Below are positions 4,325 through 57,170 of a DNA stretch of 64,000 bases, one piece after another. Positions within the stretch are counted from its first letter, which is position 1, and each line of letters starts with the position of its first letter. The stretch comes from Sporomusaceae bacterium (GTDB lineage: Bacteria > Bacillota > Negativicutes > UBA1444). Below the pieces are notes generated by a model, which saw only the letters and a list, made by a program, of their open reading frames with translations, searched no databases and was not told where the DNA came from. A program made the position numbers and the translations under genes. The stretch is taken from the NCBI GenBank assembly GCA_018434355.1, contig JAHDPL010000025.1, positions 1 through 64,000 of the forward strand. The letters are read 5' to 3'.

Positions 4325-5433
4325 TTGCCAAAGAGCTGCTGCATCGTCACAAACTTCCTATCCTGCTCCTGCTGGCGGGTTGCCTTGTAACAGCCGCCGT
4401 GTTTCTATCCGGCACTTTGGGCAACAAAAAAATCGTCAGCGAGCAACCGCCGCTGGTTCGCACTACTACCGTAAAGATGAGTGGCTCGGCGCAAGCCGCC
4501 AAATATGCCGGCGAGGTCCGCGGTCGCTATGAAAGTCAGCTGGCGTTTCAGGTCAGCGGCAAAATCATTCGTCGCCACGTCGAATTGGGCAGCGTGGTCG
4601 AGGCCGGCAGCCTGTTGATGGAAATTGACCCCAAAGACGTACAGCAGACTGTCAATATAACTGCAGCGCAGGTTTTATCGGCCCAGTCGCAACTGAAGCT
4701 GGCGGAAAATAATCTGAAGCGCTATCAGGCGCTATTTGCTCAAGGGGCAGTTAGTCGCGTCGTTTTGGAACAGTATGAGAATTCTTACGCCGCAGCGTTG
4801 GCAGCGGCCCGCATGGCAAGCGCCCAAAACAGCCAGGGAACCAACCAGCTGGACTATACGGCTCTGCGCTCGACAAGCGCCGGAGTGATTTCGGCCATCA
4901 ATGTGGAAGCTGGCCAGGTCGTGGCAGCTGGCCAGGCGGTAGTCACTCTGGTTCAGGATGGTGAACGTGAAATCGAAATTGATGTACCGGAGAATCGCTA
5001 TGAAGAAATTTTGAATGCCCGCGAGATCAAAGTATCTTTCTGGGCTTTGCCTGACCGCTCGGTGGAAGGCAAGGTAAGGGAAATCGCACCAATGGCTGAC
5101 AAAACCGCCCGCACCTATAAGGTTCGCATTCAACTGATCAATCCGCCCGCCGAGTTAAAGCTGGGAATGACCGCTAGTGTCAGCACTGCAGTTGCCGGAT
5201 CAGCCGTTACGGCTCAAATTCCTTTGTCAGCCATCTATCAAACCGGCGCCGATCCCTCTGTCTGGGTAGTCAACAACGGAGTCGTGGCATTGCGTCAGGT
5301 AAAACTTGGCAATTTCGGCGATTCTGCGGTTCAAGTCCTATCCGGACTGAAAGACCAGGATATCGTTGTGACAGCCGGCGTCCACAAGTTGAAGGAAGGG
5401 CAGAAAGTTCGCCTGGCAGGTGAACCGCAGTGA
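4321..5433 (+). CDS. RND efflux periplasmic adaptor (membrane fusion protein, HlyD/AcrA type)
   Basis: 370 residues. An N-terminal membrane anchor (about 12-32, with LLAGC that could be a lipobox) leads into the barrel-sandwich segment GEVRGRYESQLAFQVSGKI, an alpha-helical hairpin rich in Ala/Gln (about 100-165), the second lipoyl half and a beta-barrel. It would bridge the inner-membrane RND pump to an outer-membrane channel. It overlaps the TetR gene by 4 bases and the pump gene by 4 bases. No TolC-like outer-membrane factor is in the window, so the channel must come from elsewhere. Confidence 0.9.
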   Translation: MIAKELLHRHKLPILLLLAGCLVTAAVFLSGTLGNKKIVSEQPPLVRTTTVKMSGSAQAAKYAGEVRGRYESQLAFQVSGKIIRRHVELGSVVEAGSLLMEIDPKDVQQTVNITAAQVLSAQSQLKLAENNLKRYQALFAQGAVSRVVLEQYENSYAAALAAARMASAQNSQGTNQLDYTALRSTSAGVISAINVEAGQVVAAGQAVVTLVQDGEREIEIDVPENRYEEILNAREIKVSFWALPDRSVEGKVREIAPMADKTARTYKVRIQLINPPAELKLGMTASVSTAVAGSAVTAQIPLSAIYQTGADPSVWVVNNGVVALRQVKLGNFGDSAVQVLSGLKDQDIVVTAGVHKLKEGQKVRLAGEPQ

Positions 5434-8400
5434 AAAACTTCAACCTGACGGAAATCGCCTTCCGTTACAAAGAGTTTGTCTATTTTTGCATCGCAATTAT
5501 TTTTATCGCCGGTATTTTTTCCTATCAACAACTGGGGCGTATGGAAGATCCCGATTTTGTGATTCGCCAGATGGTTGTCTCCGTCGTCTGGCCAGGCGCC
5601 AGCGCCAGGGAAATCGAAGAACAGGTCACCGACAAGCTGGAGAAGAAACTGCAGGACACGCCGGGACTAGACTATCTGCGCAGCTATTCACGACCTGGCC
5701 AGTCGATCATTTATGTTTTTCTCAAGGAAACAACCCCGGAGAAAGATGTCCGTCCCACCTGGCTGGAAGTCCGCAATCTGGCAAACGATGTGAAATCCTC
5801 ATTGCCACAGGGAGTGGTCGGCCCATTTTTCAACGACCGGTTCGATGACGTTTTCGGCTCGATCTATGCATTGACCGGCGACGGTTTCAGCTATGAAGAC
5901 CTGCGCGAGCAGGCAGAAAAAATCCGTCGAACTCTGCTGGGAGTACCCAACGTGAAAAAGGTACAGCTTGTCGGTGTGCAAGCTGAAAAGATTTATGTCG
6001 AAATCGAAAGCAGCAAACTTGCCAAACTCGGCATCGATCCCAACTTATTGATCAACTCGATCAAAACGCAAAATGCCATGACACCATCCGGCATGGTAGA
6101 AACTGAAACGGACAACGTATATCTGCGAGTCAGCGGCATGTTCGAAGACATCGAGAGCATCCGCAACATCCCAGTCCGCGCGGCCGGCAAATCCTTTCGT
6201 TTAGGCGACATCGCCTCAGTAAGACGCGGCTTTGTCGATCCGTCCGATCCCAAAATGTTCTTTAACGGAAAACCCGCTGTCGGGCTAGCCCTGTCGATGG
6301 ATAAAGGCGGCAACATTCTCACACTGGGTCAGGATCTGCAATCTACGATCGAACAAATAAAGGCTGATTTACCGTTGGGCCTGGAAATCGGTCAGGTATC
6401 GAATCAGCCGGATATCGTCGAAGAATCGATCGGCGAGTTTGTCAAATCTTTGCTGGAAGCTGTCGTTATCGTGCTGATTGTCAGTTTTTTAAGTCTTGGC
6501 CTGCGGTCCGGCGTGGTGGTGGCGCTGTGCATTCCGCTTGTTCTGGCGGCAGTCTTTGCCTGCATGAAAATCCTTGGCATCGATTTGCACAAAGTGTCGC
6601 TGGGCGCGCTGATCATTTCACTCGGCTTGCTGGTCGACGATGCGATCATTGCGATCGAAATGATGTCCGTAAAGTTGGAGCAGGGGTGGAACCGTTATGA
6701 CGCCGCCTGTTATGCCTACACTGCAACGGCGATTCCGATGCTGACCGGCACCCTCATCACCTGCGCCGGATTCATTCCGATCGGGTTCGCCAAAGGCAAT
6801 GCCGCCGAGTTCTCCAGCAGTCTGTTCACCGTCATCAGTCTGGCGCTTGTCATCTCCTGGTTTGCTTCCGTCATCGTCACCCCCCTGCTCGGCTATTATC
6901 TGATCAAGCCGAACCCTGCTCATTCCGGGGAACATGATACTTACGACTCAAAATTTTACCGTAAGTTCCGCAGCATCCTCACCTGGTGTCTACATCACCG
7001 CAAACTAGTGCTCAATTTGACTCTCGTCTGTTTCATCGGCTCGATCTTCTTATTCCAACTGATTCGTCAGGAATTCTTCCCACCCTCCCTACGCAAAGAA
7101 ATCATCGTTGAAATGTCGCTGCCGGAAGGCGCTTCGATCCGCTCAACCGAGGCCGTGGCCAACCGTTTTGCCAAAGAATTTGCCGGCAATCCCGACCTGG
7201 CCAGCTACAGTTACCATGTCGGCGAAGGCGCGCCACGTTTCGTACTGACCAGCGAACCTACGTTGCCAAACAGCAACTATGCACAGTTCATTTTAGTCGC
7301 CAAGGATTTGCAAGCCCGACAGCGTTTGACTGACAAAACCAACGCACTTCTGGCCGAAAAATTTTCCGAAGTAAAAAGCCATGTAAAACTGCTGCAAACC
7401 GGCCCGCCGTCTGCCTATCCGGTCATGCTGCGGGTCAGCGGAGCCGACCATGAAAAAACAAAAGAAATCGCCAAACAGGTTGGCGATTACATGTACAAAC
7501 AGGATTTTTTGACCGATATCAACTATGACTGGATTGAAAAAGCAAAAACGATGCAGCTGTCTGTTGACCAGGACAAAGCCCGTATGTTGGGAGTCGATAA
7601 CCAGACCCTAGCCAGCAGTCTGCAAATGCAACTGTCCGGCGCTGCTATCGCTGAATTCCGTGAGGATGACAAAACCGTTTCCATCGTGTTTCGCATGGAT
7701 CCCCAAGACCGCAATAATCTTGGCCGCATCAAGGATTTGCCGCTGCATATCGGTGGCGGAAAATTCGTGCCGCTCGGCCAGATCGCTAATATCAGCTACG
7801 ACAGTGAACAAGGACTGATCTGGCGACGCAACCTGAAACCGACCATCACGGTCCAAGCCGAAATCAGCAACGGCATCACCGGCAATGATGCCACGAAAAA
7901 GGTCTTTGAAGGAATTTCGCCGCTACGGGCCAAACTGCCGCCCGGTTACAAGATTGAGGTAGGCGGATCACTGGAAAATAGCAAAAAATCGATCGGCTAT
8001 TTGCTAAAACCGGTTCCGGTAATGGTCTTGGTCATCGTCGTACTGCTGATGCTGCAACTGCAGCGAATTTCATTAATGCTACTGACTTTGCTGACAGCGC
8101 CGCTCGGTATCATTGGCGTTGCGGTTTTGATGCTGATCACTTTCAAACCGATCGGCTTTGTCGCCGAACTCGGCATCCTGGCGCTCGGAGGCATGATCAT
8201 CCGCAACTCGGTCATTCTAATTGATCAGATTGAGCGCCATATCGCCGATGGGCAAACACCCTGGTCGGCAATCATTGATTCTGCTGTGCTGCGGTTCCGG
8301 CCGATTATGCTGACGGCTGCGGCGGCGATTCTGGGCATGCTTCCACTGATGCCCAGCACGTTCTGGGGACCGATGGCCATCGCGATTGCCGGCGGACTGT

Positions 8401-8596: not shown

Positions 8597-9673
8597 TTAT
8601 GAAATCATTTCCACGATCTGAGCCGGTGTTTTCCCTGCAAGACCTAGTTTTTCGAGGGTTCGGCCTTCTTTCCATAAATCACGGCCCAAAACAATATTTC
8701 CGACCTCCACGATCGCGTTCATCGTAGTGGTCCGAACTCCCAGTACCGTCCCCAGCAGCGATAATGGAACCAAACCCGTGGGAATGTCCTCAAAAATGTA
8801 TCGGGTGTTCAACGTCGTCGGTCCCTTTATGCCTTCATACGCTTTAACATTTTGAACCAACTCATATAGAGTTGAGCCGGAAACCCCGTAGGATTCCTTG
8901 TACCATTCTTCAATTGACATCAGTTTTATTCCGAGCGCCGCCCCAATGGCCAATCGTTCAGCGTCTAATTTTTCAATCACTTTAGCCAAGGCTGGCGTAA
9001 CTCCTTCCGAATAATATTCAAAAGGAGACTTGCATTCAATACGTCCGGCGTTAAGCAACGTCGGAGCCGGATGCATCATCGCATTGACATTGTTCAGGCT
9101 GGTATAAAGGATGTTGGGCAAAGTCTTAAACTGTGGAAACGCCAGATTCAGTTCATCAACCACCTGCTTGGCATAGGATGATGGGAGCGTCGCCAATTCA
9201 ACGACTTCTTTTACTCCGTAAATAATCACTTCTCCAGGTTGAGGACTCCGGCAGGCGTATAGCAACGTCACCGTTTCCGCCAAAATAACCTTCCGTTCAG
9301 GATTATCCGCCAAAATTGCGTTACGAAACTCCAAAGCCCCCCCTGTTGCCCCCGGATGAAGAATGATGATTTGTCCATCGACCAGATGAGGGGCCATCGC
9401 TTTGGCAATACTCCCCTGATAGTTCGTCGGCAACACCACCATAATGATTTTTGCGCCCCGAACTGCCTGACCGATGTCATCTGTAACCAGGCTAATTTCT
9501 GCAGTTCCTTCAACCGCCCCGCTCAGTTTGATTTTACCCAGTTTTTTCAACGCCTCGACCTTGGGTTTCTCAATATCATATAGCTGAACCGGAAATCCTT
9601 TCAAACCAAGATGGGCGGCAAAAGCTTGTCCGCCATTGCCTGCGCCGATAACCGCATACGTTGATTTCTGCAA
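8597..9673 (-). CDS. NAD/NADP octopine/nopaline dehydrogenase family protein
   Basis: 358 residues. An N-terminal Rossmann fold begins YAVIGAGNGGQAFAAHL (nucleotide site GAGNGG) and the C-terminal half is the alpha-helical opine dehydrogenase domain with the conserved NNVNAMMHPAPTLLNAG segment. Members reductively join an amino acid to a 2-oxo acid, or oxidise such conjugates. The start is TTG, 8 bases after GGGAGG. It is the last gene of the TRAP transporter operon, so it probably acts on the imported organic acid or on an opine taken up whole. The true substrate is not determinable. Confidence 0.85.
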   Translation of the reverse strand: MQKSTYAVIGAGNGGQAFAAHLGLKGFPVQLYDIEKPKVEALKKLGKIKLSGAVEGTAEISLVTDDIGQAVRGAKIIMVVLPTNYQGSIAKAMAPHLVDGQIIILHPGATGGALEFRNAILADNPERKVILAETVTLLYACRSPQPGEVIIYGVKEVVELATLPSSYAKQVVDELNLAFPQFKTLPNILYTSLNNVNAMMHPAPTLLNAGRIECKSPFEYYSEGVTPALAKVIEKLDAERLAIGAALGIKLMSIEEWYKESYGVSGSTLYELVQNVKAYEGIKGPTTLNTRYIFEDIPTGLVPLSLLGTVLGVRTTTMNAIVEVGNIVLGRDLWKEGRTLEKLGLAGKTPAQIVEMIS

Positions 9674-40900: not shown

Positions 40901-40911
40901 CGTTTCTGATG

Positions 40912-40956
40912 TGGTGGAGGTAGTCGGGATCGAACCGGCGACCTCTTGAATGCCAT
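40912..40956 (-). tRNA. 3' half of tRNA-Ala (GGC), attachment-site remnant
   Basis: Minus-strand sequence runs from an anticodon loop TGGCAT through the anticodon 3' stem TCAAG, the variable loop GAGGTC, a T-arm with GGTTCGATCCCGAC and acceptor strand TACCTCC then ACCA. The 5' half is absent: the sequence diverges from a tRNA exactly at the anticodon loop. One T-stem pair is mismatched. This is the usual core left by tyrosine recombinases integrating at the 3' end of a tRNA gene. It cannot be a working tRNA. Confidence 0.7.
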
Positions 40957-50692: not shown

Positions 50693-50765
50693 GGTGGCGC
50701 TGAGCACGGAGCGGGAAGCCCGCAGGCATAGAAAAAGCGGGCTGAAGCCCGCGCGTAGCGACAAT
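50693..50765 (+). repeat. REP-like palindromic element, copy 1
   Basis: A 70-base unit with GAGCACGGAGCGGGAAGCCC, a short A-rich spacer and GCGGGCTGAAGCCCGCGCG. It forms nested GC-rich hairpins. It is 85-90% alike to 54331-54402 in the same orientation. Confidence 0.7.
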
Positions 50766-53954: not shown

Positions 53955-54173
53955 ATGATGGATAAATCTTATGGTAAAACACTACGCCAAATTCGCAAAG
54001 ATAAAGGGTTGAGTCAAGAAGAATTGGCTTTCAAAACCAATTTGCACCGCACCTATATCAGTTTGCTGGAGCGTGACCAAAAAAGCCCTTCGCTTAGAAC
54101 AGTTACCACGATAGCCGCCGCAATGGGCTATAGCTTGCTTGAATTCGTTAAAAAAATGGACGAAGCGGACTGA
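53955..54173 (+). CDS. XRE-family helix-turn-helix protein
   Basis: 72 residues that are almost all HTH_3: LRQIRKDKGLSQEELAFKTN followed by LHRTYISLLERDQKSPSLRT. Either ATG at 53955 or 53958 could start it; there is no clear ribosome site. Short stand-alone XRE proteins usually control a neighbouring mobile or restriction locus. It lies directly upstream of the long non-coding region and may control it. A TATAGT-like -10 lies about 40 bases upstream. Confidence 0.85.
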   Translation: MMDKSYGKTLRQIRKDKGLSQEELAFKTNLHRTYISLLERDQKSPSLRTVTTIAAAMGYSLLEFVKKMDEAD

Positions 54174-54330: not shown

Positions 54331-54402
54331 CGGTGGCGCGAGCACGGAGCGGGAAGCCCGCAAGCAAACAAAAAACGGGCTGAAGCCCGCGCGCAGCGCC
54401 AC
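54331..54402 (+). repeat. REP-like palindromic element, copy 2
   Basis: Same unit and orientation as 50693-50765. The two copies bracket the phosphatase/ATPase and XRE genes as direct repeats about 3.6 kb apart. Confidence 0.7.
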
Positions 54403-54540: not shown

Positions 54541-55560
54541 TTGCCAGATTATCTGCCTGACCTGAGCCGGCAGAGGCGATCCCGCAGGGTGAGAATCCGT
54601 CGTGAACCGCCGCCAGAGCAGCCCAAAGCGTCGGATAGCGCTATTTATGTAGACCCGCAGGGCGCGCAGTGAAACGAGCGGTAGACGCTTTGCGGACTAC
54701 TATACATAAATCGCGTTATCGCTGATGCGACGGCGGGGAGTTTGACGAAAACTGGCGTGGCACCGATCGGGCCGCGACCGTGACTGATTTTTCAGTTGCG
54801 GTGGCGGCTTCTTGCTGCAGTTTTAGGGAAGAGAGAACGACGAGGCGTGATCCGGATCGGCGAGGAACGAAGCCGGGCCGGTTGACGCCGAAAGACTGAC
54901 GAACCAGGATGGAAGCCGAGCGCTGCAGGCGCTACCGCGATAATCTTCTTAACCGATCCGGCCACAGGCCGCTCAACTGAAAATACCGCTTGGAAAGTGC
55001 TTCGGCAGCGACCGCCTCCCGAAGTTTCGGGTGCGGTGGCTGCTTCATTTGCAGTTTGTTTGAGTTGAGAACAACAGAGGCGATCCGGTTCGGCGCGGCA
55101 CGAAGCCGGGCCGGGTGACGCCGATGGATCGTGCAAAAACCGTCGGACTAGCGCCGTTCTCCGGGCATGGATGAACGCAGGCGGAGACGGAACCGGGAAG
55201 GTCGCAGCGAATCGCCGCGCCTGAACCGGTGGAGATGATGCCTGGCGGAATCGATGCCCTCCCCCGGAACGGCGTAGCCGGGCCGGGATGTCAAGCCGCG
55301 ACCGTGGCCGACGGGCGCAGGTGGTGAATGCTTGGACGCTGGCAAACGATAGCGCAGACAGCGGACATAGCAGATCCACATCCGAACGAAGTGAAGGATG
55401 CAGCTAAGGACCGGAGCGCCGCGGTGGCGGAAGTGTGCTTCGCTGATGCAGGGCGGCCCGAAGGGCGGTATAACGAAAGCCCGCCACCATGCGGGTGGCG
55501 GGCTGGAGGCCGGACGAGGGACGCGAAGGGGGAGGGGAGTATCGCTGCACAGAGCGAGTC
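54541..55560 (+). ncRNA. candidate large structured non-coding RNA with two paralogous domains
   Basis: A GC-rich stretch of about 1 kb without convincing ORFs. A stem CCGCCG/CGGCGG (54607-54612 with 54731-54736) encloses an interleaved pseudoknot: AAAGCGTC (54625) with GACGCTTT (54684), and an 18-bp helix at 54634-54651 with about 54702-54719. Then two domains of the same plan follow, 234 bases apart (54771-54893 and 55005-55126). Each has a hairpin with outer stems GCCGC/GCGGC or GCAGC/GCTGC, a GA/TG internal loop, a CCG/CGG stem and a 5-bp top that differs in sequence but still pairs; then a second hairpin with GGCG/CGCC, CCGG/CCGG and CGGC/GCCG around a loop ending ACGAA. An 8-bp stem CGCCGTTC/GAACGGCG (55152, 55267) closes a third domain, and an 11-bp stem AGCCCGCCACC ends near 55504. 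The strand is inferred from one G-U pair and the upstream -10. It matches no RNA class I can name. Confidence 0.55.
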
Positions 55561-55569
55561 CCTACTGAT

Positions 55570-55694
55570 CCATCAAATACCCATCAAATAAAACCCGTTT
55601 TGCAAGAATCCCATTATATCGCCATTCGCGAAGTATTTTATCAGCCGCGCGGTCGTTGGTTTCGCCGTTCCATCAAATACCCATCAAATAAAAA
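55570..55694 (+). repeat. direct repeats of a doubled CCATCAAATA motif, exactly 100 bp apart
   Basis: A 24-base unit, two CCATCAAATA-type motifs (CCATCAAATA then CCCATCAAATAAAA), occurs at 55570-55593 and again at 55670-55693. The 76 bases between the units are unique. They sit between the structured RNA region and the Schlafen-AlbA_2 stop codon. Confidence 0.75.
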
Positions 55695-55703
55695 TTGCCA
55701 TGC

Positions 55704-57170
55704 TTATGCCCAAAAGGGAACATACTGCATCATCTTGCGAGCTGCTGCGTCGTCGTAGGGTTTAATCAATCCGGCATCAATCGCTTCTTTGATCATGCGG
55801 GACGCGGTGGCGCTGTTGCGTGGTTCGATGCCAAATCGCTCTCGCAAAGTGGTATTGGTCATGAAATCCCTCTGAACATATCGCAAGCAAGCATGTTGGT
55901 AGCAGGCCCGCGTCCGGTCGTCGCGACTCATTTTGCTCAGCGGACGATGCGAAAACATAGTCACCCGCAGCGATGCATTGACTACTTCAAAATCCGGCGC
56001 AGGCAACTGATAGGCTTCAGTATGAAAAACAACCTTATCAATCCCGCTGCCACGTTCTTCACAGAAACCGACCCGCCGCATGAATGACGCCAACGCTTCG
56101 TTGCGCGATTTTGGCGGATTATCCAGCATGCGTTCTACGCTAACCAACAAATTGCCGGGGCTGGTAATCTCCATCCGCTCGGCGAAAATCTCGATCAGCG
56201 GCCCGGCGCCGGTAACGAAAAAATCTTGATGAATCAGTGCATTGGCCACGAGCTCACGAACAGCAACTTCCGGATACATTGGCACGGATTGCCGGAGAGC
56301 CTGCTTGATTACTTCATTTGCCGGCAATAGTGCATTAATATAGGAAATCAGCCCTTCAAATCCGCAGGCATAGCCTTTGCTGCCGCCTTGCTCCTTCATT
56401 GTCTCGATTCGACTGTTTCCCCGATATTGAATGACCCGCACCGCCTTGCGCTGAAGCGCACGGAATTCTTCCAGGCGCTTGGCAAACAGAATTGCGCCTA
56501 GGTTCGTGATGCACCATTGCCCTGAGTCCATGCGGCGAATCAACTGATCTGCTTCCAATGAAGATAAAATTTGCTCCCGGTTGGCCGGCAGCGGCAATTT
56601 TACCAAATCAAAATATGACGGATAGTCGAGCAAACTTAATACTCTTTCCCCTGTAATGTTTTCCGTGGCAGCCATTTCTTCGAATGGCGTCTGCTCAAAT
56701 GATCGCCACAAATTTCGTTCGATCTCGGGAAATTCCTTTAAGCGCTTTTTGTATGAGCCAATCCGAATGAACTCTTGATTCTTAAATTGTACCGGGTGGC
56801 GGAAAGCGCGACCAATTTCCAAAATTACGACGCGCTTTTCTTCCATCTGCAAATTGTAAAACCGAAAATCGATTTTGGGGCGGAGAAAGCGCAGCAGCCA
56901 GTTTTCCAGTTCCTCTTCGCCAACTTTTGCGGCAAAAGGGTCAAACGTCGTTCCGACAATATCCTGGCAACCGTCGCGCACACCCCAGACCAAATAGGCC
57001 GAAGACTTATCCGCTAAAACTGCCGAGTTGGCCAGTGCGGAAATGTATTCGCCGATTTCATCCGGATCGCCGTTATTCTCTTTAAACTCGACCCAGCCTG
57101 TTTCACGAGGCAGCTTGCAAAGCTCATGAACCAGACTGACGAGGGCATCGTGGGGGCGGATTGTAGTCAT
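55704..57170 (-). CDS. Schlafen AlbA_2 domain / HATPase_c_4 DNA-binding protein
   Basis: 488 residues. The N-terminal AlbA_2 domain (about 15-135) has WVEFKENNGDPDEIGEYISA, YLVWGVRDG and the FIRIGSYKK end. The middle carries the HATPase_c_4 segment AVRELVANALIHQDF and ITSPGNLL, with RRVGFCEERGSGIDKV, then a C-terminal winged-helix. Such proteins are common in accessory islands and have been linked to regulation and phage defence in related domains; no role is proven here. AAGGA lies before the ATG. Confidence 0.87.
   Translation of the reverse strand: MTTIRPHDALVSLVHELCKLPRETGWVEFKENNGDPDEIGEYISALANSAVLADKSSAYLVWGVRDGCQDIVGTTFDPFAAKVGEEELENWLLRFLRPKIDFRFYNLQMEEKRVVILEIGRAFRHPVQFKNQEFIRIGSYKKRLKEFPEIERNLWRSFEQTPFEEMAATENITGERVLSLLDYPSYFDLVKLPLPANREQILSSLEADQLIRRMDSGQWCITNLGAILFAKRLEEFRALQRKAVRVIQYRGNSRIETMKEQGGSKGYACGFEGLISYINALLPANEVIKQALRQSVPMYPEVAVRELVANALIHQDFFVTGAGPLIEIFAERMEITSPGNLLVSVERMLDNPPKSRNEALASFMRRVGFCEERGSGIDKVVFHTEAYQLPAPDFEVVNASLRVTMFSHRPLSKMSRDDRTRACYQHACLRYVQRDFMTNTTLRERFGIEPRNSATASRMIKEAIDAGLIKPYDDAAARKMMQYVPFWA

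Follow-up and report, generated by a model that had tools for sequence, protein, structure and literature searches.

Does the roughly 1,000-nucleotide non-coding stretch between an XRE gene and a Schlafen-type gene encode a structured RNA, and if so, is that RNA related to any known family? To address this question, the region 54,541-55,560 of the analysed window (a 64,000-nucleotide stretch, bases 1-64,000 of contig C27 of a 3.9 Mb, 55-contig genome) was compared with Rfam, with its own genome and with other genomes, phages and plasmids. A first-pass annotation had proposed a large RNA with two covarying paralogous domains 234 bp apart and an upstream pseudoknot, likening it in size and build to GOLLD, ROOL, OLE or group II intron cores, but without an intron domain V or a partner ORF. 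Our analysis bears out what that annotation saw in the sequence. Its interpretation is supported in part: a large structured RNA with covarying repeats, no Rfam match and no intron domain V or reverse transcriptase partner is supported, and the comparison with GOLLD and ROOL is apt in kind (size, phage context) but there is no membership. The pseudoknot is unproven, and the covariation comes only from paralogues of a single genome.

Four diverged copies of a non-coding element

Searches with cmscan at the gathering threshold on the whole window gave no Rfam match in the region, and only a meaningless weak match was seen at E<=10. At permissive thresholds (E<=10 or 5), none of the four copies described below gave a meaningful match to any Rfam family, and none matched the GOLLD, ROOL, OLE or group II intron models. 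A blastn search of the region against its own genome found related stretches in three other places, L022, L023 and L021 (copies L22, L23 and L21; the window copy is W). The conserved part of W is 54,559 to 55,526, and the element spans 0.7-1.0 kb. All four copies begin with GACC(T/G)(G/A)AGCCG and share the domain order A-B-C. Domain B is duplicated only in W, module D is found only in L23 and L21, and L21 is split by a DUF2202 gene that lies between domains B/D and C on the opposite strand. The features are listed in Table 1.

Table 1. Features of the element, its copies and its surroundings (window positions unless another sequence is named)
Position	Strand	Feature	Basis
54559..54745	+	Domain A (5' domain); begins at GACCTGAGCC, a start shared with slight changes by all four copies	Alignments of copies; covariance model R2 finds exactly four strong copies, 98-147 bits
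54634..54651	+	5' arm of long helix P1 (GATAGCGC) + P2 (ATTTATGTA); pairs with 54703-54720	Perfect pairing in all four copies
54703..54720	+	3' arm of P2+P1	Pairing as above
54625..54632	+	Arm of proposed pseudoknot helix (AAAGCGTC), with 54684-54691 (GACGCTTT)	8 bp in W; unproven
54768..54896	+	Domain B copy 1: hairpin GCCGC-G-ACCG...CGGT-G-GCGGC, then GGCGT/ACGCC + CCGG/CCGG hairpin	Alignment folding; covariance model R1
55003..55129	+	Domain B copy 2 (a second copy only in this locus)	R1; compensatory changes versus copy 1
55152..55317	+	Module C1-C2, including hairpin CCCGG-AAC-GGC-GTA-GCC-GGG-CCGGG and AAGCCGCGACCGTGGCC, identical in all four copies	Sequence comparison; alignment folding
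55320..55403	+	Module E, with 33 nt (TAGCAGATCCACATCCGAACGAAGTGAAGGATG) identical in three copies; absent in L22, placed before C2 instead of after it in L21	Sequence comparison; alignment folding
55408..55430	+	Module F (GACCGGAGCGCCGCGGTGGCGG), potential partner of GCCGCGACCG at the end of C2	Sequence comparison; pairing inferred
55478..55526	.	3' end: 11-bp hairpin AGCCCGCCACC/GGTGGCGGGCT plus GGAGGCCGGACGAGGGACGCGA; its T-tract lies on the - strand, so it may terminate the facing AlbA_2 transcript	Sequence
54792..55379	-	Antisense ORF, 195 aa	Not supported as coding
55704..57170	-	SLFN_AlbA_2 + HATPase_c_4 protein, convergent; paralogue (75% aa identity) beside L22	Protein domains
53955..54173	+	XRE/HTH_3 protein (72 aa)	Protein domains
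40911..40956	.	46-bp copy of the 3' end of tRNA-Ala (intact gene at contig position 72,130-72,205); inferred left boundary of the island	Direct repeat
54332..54401		REP-like GC-rich palindrome; also at 50693-50763, L022 about 5416-5470 and C33:62380	Dispersed repeat
55570..55590 and 55670..55690		Pair of tandem repeats (CCATCAAATACCCATCAAATA) 100 bp apart	Sequence
C33, about 83.4-84.2 kb	+	Copy L22 (L022)	blastn
C33, 98.6-99.4 kb	-	Copy L23 (L023)	blastn
C27, 66.1-67.7 kb	-	Copy L21 (L021)	blastn

To determine whether the region could encode a protein, the indels between copies were examined. The copies differ by indels that are often not multiples of three, with many of 1, 2 and 4 bases, and a protein-coding reading of the - strand, where the only long antisense ORF lies, was rejected on this basis. 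W and L22 are 81% identical over the 5' part, while the stretch running from the RNA 3' end through the AlbA_2 gene is 71% identical. The 3' domains of W and L23 are 80% identical, which suggests exchange between copies.

Structure is conserved in domains A and B

The two domains noted in the first-pass annotation begin at 54,771 and 55,005, an offset of 234, and contain exactly the stems reported there (GCCGC/GCGGC versus GCAGC/GCTGC; ACTGA/TCAGT versus CCCGA/TCGGG). Three further copies of this domain exist in the genome (96-142 bits, E 3e-15 to 5e-24) and show the same exchanges. Domain A is closed by the long helix, which pairs perfectly in all four copies with different sequences (P1: GATAGCGC/GCGTTATC, GATAACAT/ATGTTATC, GATAAT/ATTATC, GACAATAG/CTATTGTC; P2 with A-T to C-G and T-A to G-C exchanges). 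A small hairpin switches CCC-GCA-GGG to CGC-GTA-GCG. These helices were picked by hand assuming the + strand, whereas the tests that follow were not.

Alignment folding against 100 column shuffles gave z-scores of -4.1 for domain A and -9.4 for domain B on the + strand, compared to -3.1 and -5.9 on the - strand. To determine whether the predicted fold of one copy survives in another, broken pairs were counted against randomised substitutions. On the + strand the domain A pairs of W survive in L22 far better than chance (3 broken, 11.3 expected, P<0.001), but not on the - strand (8 broken, 10.6 expected, P=0.12). Similar results were obtained for L23-L21 (P=0.008 on +, 0.35 on -) and L22-L21 (P=0.001 on +, 0.06 on -), while W-L23 was not significant on either strand. 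Overall, structure retention on the + strand ranged from P<0.001 to 0.02 in most domain A and B comparisons. Domain B is rich in palindromic hairpins and is kept on both strands in most comparisons. Single-sequence z-scores were -5.3 for L22 and -3.4 for L23, from 20 shuffles each; however, domain A of W folded alone is not unusually stable (z -1.3). The covariation rests on five domain B and four domain A sequences, and conversion between copies is likely.

The 8-bp helix of the proposed pseudoknot does interleave with the long helix of W, which has 8+9 bp where the first-pass annotation had counted 18 bp. In the other copies the 8-bp arm shrinks to an invariant 4-5 bp (CGTC/GACG) with no covariation, and at least one Watson-Crick 8-mer match arises by chance in 21% of shuffles of domain A. 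The pseudoknot itself is therefore neither confirmed nor excluded. The 3' half is conserved in sequence, with two near-invariant stretches of about 33 nt, but its fold is mostly unresolved, and no common fold could be established beyond the C2 hairpin (z -2.3 for C1C2 on the + strand and -0.3 on the - strand; -1.9 for E; -0.1 for C1).

Two copies in each of two phage-like islands

The right-hand end of each region has an integrase next to a tRNA gene (Ala on C27, Leu on C33), and 46-bp and 101-bp copies of the tRNA 3' ends lie 31 kb and 38 kb away. We infer two integrated islands. Both also hold genes that look respiratory or metabolic, so the left boundaries are less certain. The islands share replication initiator, helicase loader, antirepressor, endolysin and integrase genes, a helix-turn-helix regulator next to the integrase (S24 repressor type on C27), and a DUF1659/YvrJ-type cluster. 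No capsid or packaging genes were noticed in the stretches read, so the islands may be remnants.

Each island carries two convergent copies of the element. One (beta: L21, L23) follows the helicase loader on the same strand as the replication and antirepressor genes and lies between the loader and the antirepressor gene, and the other (alpha: W, L22) faces a SLFN_AlbA_2/HATPase_c_4 gene. Because contexts pair as alpha-alpha and beta-beta between islands, the two-copy arrangement, which had not been foreseen in the first-pass annotation, is probably ancestral. No clear promoter was found immediately upstream, and no clear + strand terminator was found at the 3' end.

No relative was found in the other genomes examined

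To determine how widely the element is distributed, covariance models of domain B (R1) and domain A (R2) were used to search 380 genomes of the class and 398 drawn from the phylum, two overlapping samples that together cover about 760 genomes. Convincing matches were found only in this genome, and the sister genome of the genus, which is 73% complete, has no match. R2 hits of 21-25 bits in five other genomes are poor alignments without a domain B and were rejected, and an R1 hit at contig C24 (30.6 bits) is a lone hairpin. A pattern for the domain B core scanned over 84,980 species genomes gave 67 matches, none a relative by R1, the only model applied to them. Searches by blastn of phages, plasmids and 100 relatives returned nothing beyond short chance matches. 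Of the motif scans of viral contigs, two found nothing, and the loci returned by the others are chance by covariance model, those of two scans being judged with R1 only. Phage relatives of the helicase loader lack the RNA by both models, and in one such locus (L132) small ORFs follow the loader. The family is therefore known so far from one genome.

Interpretation

The reading we favour, with a probability of roughly 0.62, is that the element is a previously undescribed large structured non-coding RNA, encoded on the + strand of this window and carried by a family of phage-like genomic islands. It would be built from a 5' domain (A), one or two B domains, optional modules D and E, and a 3' part (C, F), with modules duplicated or shuffled between copies. 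The copies, their module structure, the compensated stems, the strand preference, the conservation and the island context are established by the comparisons above; for domains A and B these include conserved secondary structure with compensatory changes in the absence of coding. Expression and function, on the other hand, are inferred from sequence and by analogy: the beta copy may be transcribed with the co-directional replication-loader-RNA-antirepressor-endolysin genes when the island repressor is relieved, and the RNA may act as a long-lived folded particle or scaffold, as has been suggested for GOLLD and ROOL.

GOLLD and ROOL are phage-encoded RNAs of similar size and unknown function that form cages (PMC12286853). 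GOLLD RNAs are often over 800 nt, ornate, and encoded in phages and prophages, with a conserved and a less conserved region (PMC12286853). GOLLD is often found near tRNA islands, and here only single tRNA genes lie next to the integrases of islands that also hold repressor and replication genes. The present element has no match to the GOLLD model and no tRNA array, has two copies per island, and has duplicated and shuffled modules. ROOL is similar in size range (659 nt for the solved example), phage context and complex secondary structure (PMC12286853), but there is no match to its Rfam model and the context differs. An abundant ncRNA of about 800 nt in phage ICP1 has been compared to GOLLD and ROOL, and PLE satellites have an abundant ncRNA that lies between inverted repeats (PMC7567579); these are further analogues, being large or abundant ncRNAs in orf-less space of a phage or satellite. 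A distant search of the phage collection found no match to anything. OLE is likewise a large ornate bacterial RNA, but its model does not match and OLE is not known to be phage-encoded. The element should therefore be called a separate candidate class, similar in kind to GOLLD and ROOL but not a member of either.

Giant phage-encoded RNAs have known structures but no known function. An unrelated RNA of the same general kind, with two diverged copies in each of two islands of one genome and a recurring place beside the antirepressor and replication genes, would give a new system in which to ask what such RNAs do, including by removing one copy at a time. A more far-reaching possibility, which is tentative and less likely than not, is a new class of modular giant RNA with two RNAs per mobile island, assembled from repeatable interchangeable domains (palindromic GCCGGGCCGG hairpins and G-G mismatch helices that could make kissing or symmetric contacts) and acting as an RNA-only particle during island mobilisation.

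Among the alternatives, all unlikely, the one that survives best is a cis-acting or antisense regulator of the phage antirepressor gene (ant). In this view the beta copy would be a long structured leader between helicase loader and ant that controls ant expression, as small processed RNAs do in P1/P4/N15-type immunity, and the alpha copy would be a derivative. RNA control of antirepressors is known (cited in PMC7567579), and in L023 the RNA is co-directional and ends about 115 nt before the likely ant start. However, known regulators of this type are far shorter, alpha copies are not next to ant, and in L021 several genes lie between the RNA and ant.

A cluster of DNA palindromes (REP/BIME-like or hairpin substrates) is slightly less likely. 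The element has many GC-rich palindromes and GNA triloops, and a separate REP-like palindrome, apparently not part of the RNA, lies immediately upstream and is dispersed at four places. In contrast to dispersed REPs, modules A-F occur as such only in these four loci, and the strand asymmetry, the long conserved unpaired stretches and the long-range helices enclosing other stems also speak against this reading.

It is also doubtful that the element is the RNA partner of the AlbA_2/HATPase_c_4 protein in a defence-like system. In both islands the alpha copy is 3' of this gene, and Qat-like genes lie beyond it in one island, where KAP NTPase, unknown protein, QueC-like and TatD genes in a row (L022 7927-11965, - strand) look like a QatABCD-type anti-phage system. 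On the other hand, homologues of the protein in other genomes and viral contigs have no such RNA nearby, beta copies have no such neighbour, and PADLOC gives only partial matches for the protein. A degenerate group II intron or other retroelement RNA, suggested by size and multi-domain build, is very unlikely, since no Rfam intron model matches any copy even at E<=5-10 and no reverse transcriptase was noticed in the ORFs read around the four copies, not all of which were searched by profile.

The SLFN_AlbA_2/HATPase_c_4 gene may have a conserved cis element of its own. The pair of tandem repeats listed in Table 1 lies just 3' of it, a variant pair (CCAGCAAGTACCCAGCAAGTA) lies beside the L022 homologue, similar-looking pairs lie beside homologues in two other loci (L190 and L186), and a solo pair is present in the sister genome (L018), where no close homologue of the gene was found. 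In L021, where the DUF2202 gene inside the RNA copy occupies positions 8631-9161 (+), a 221-bp repeat that is 94% identical (C27:63752-63972 and 65004-65224) lies among small unknown genes, and its edge shares the GGAGGCCGG.C.AGGGACGC module with the RNA 3' end.
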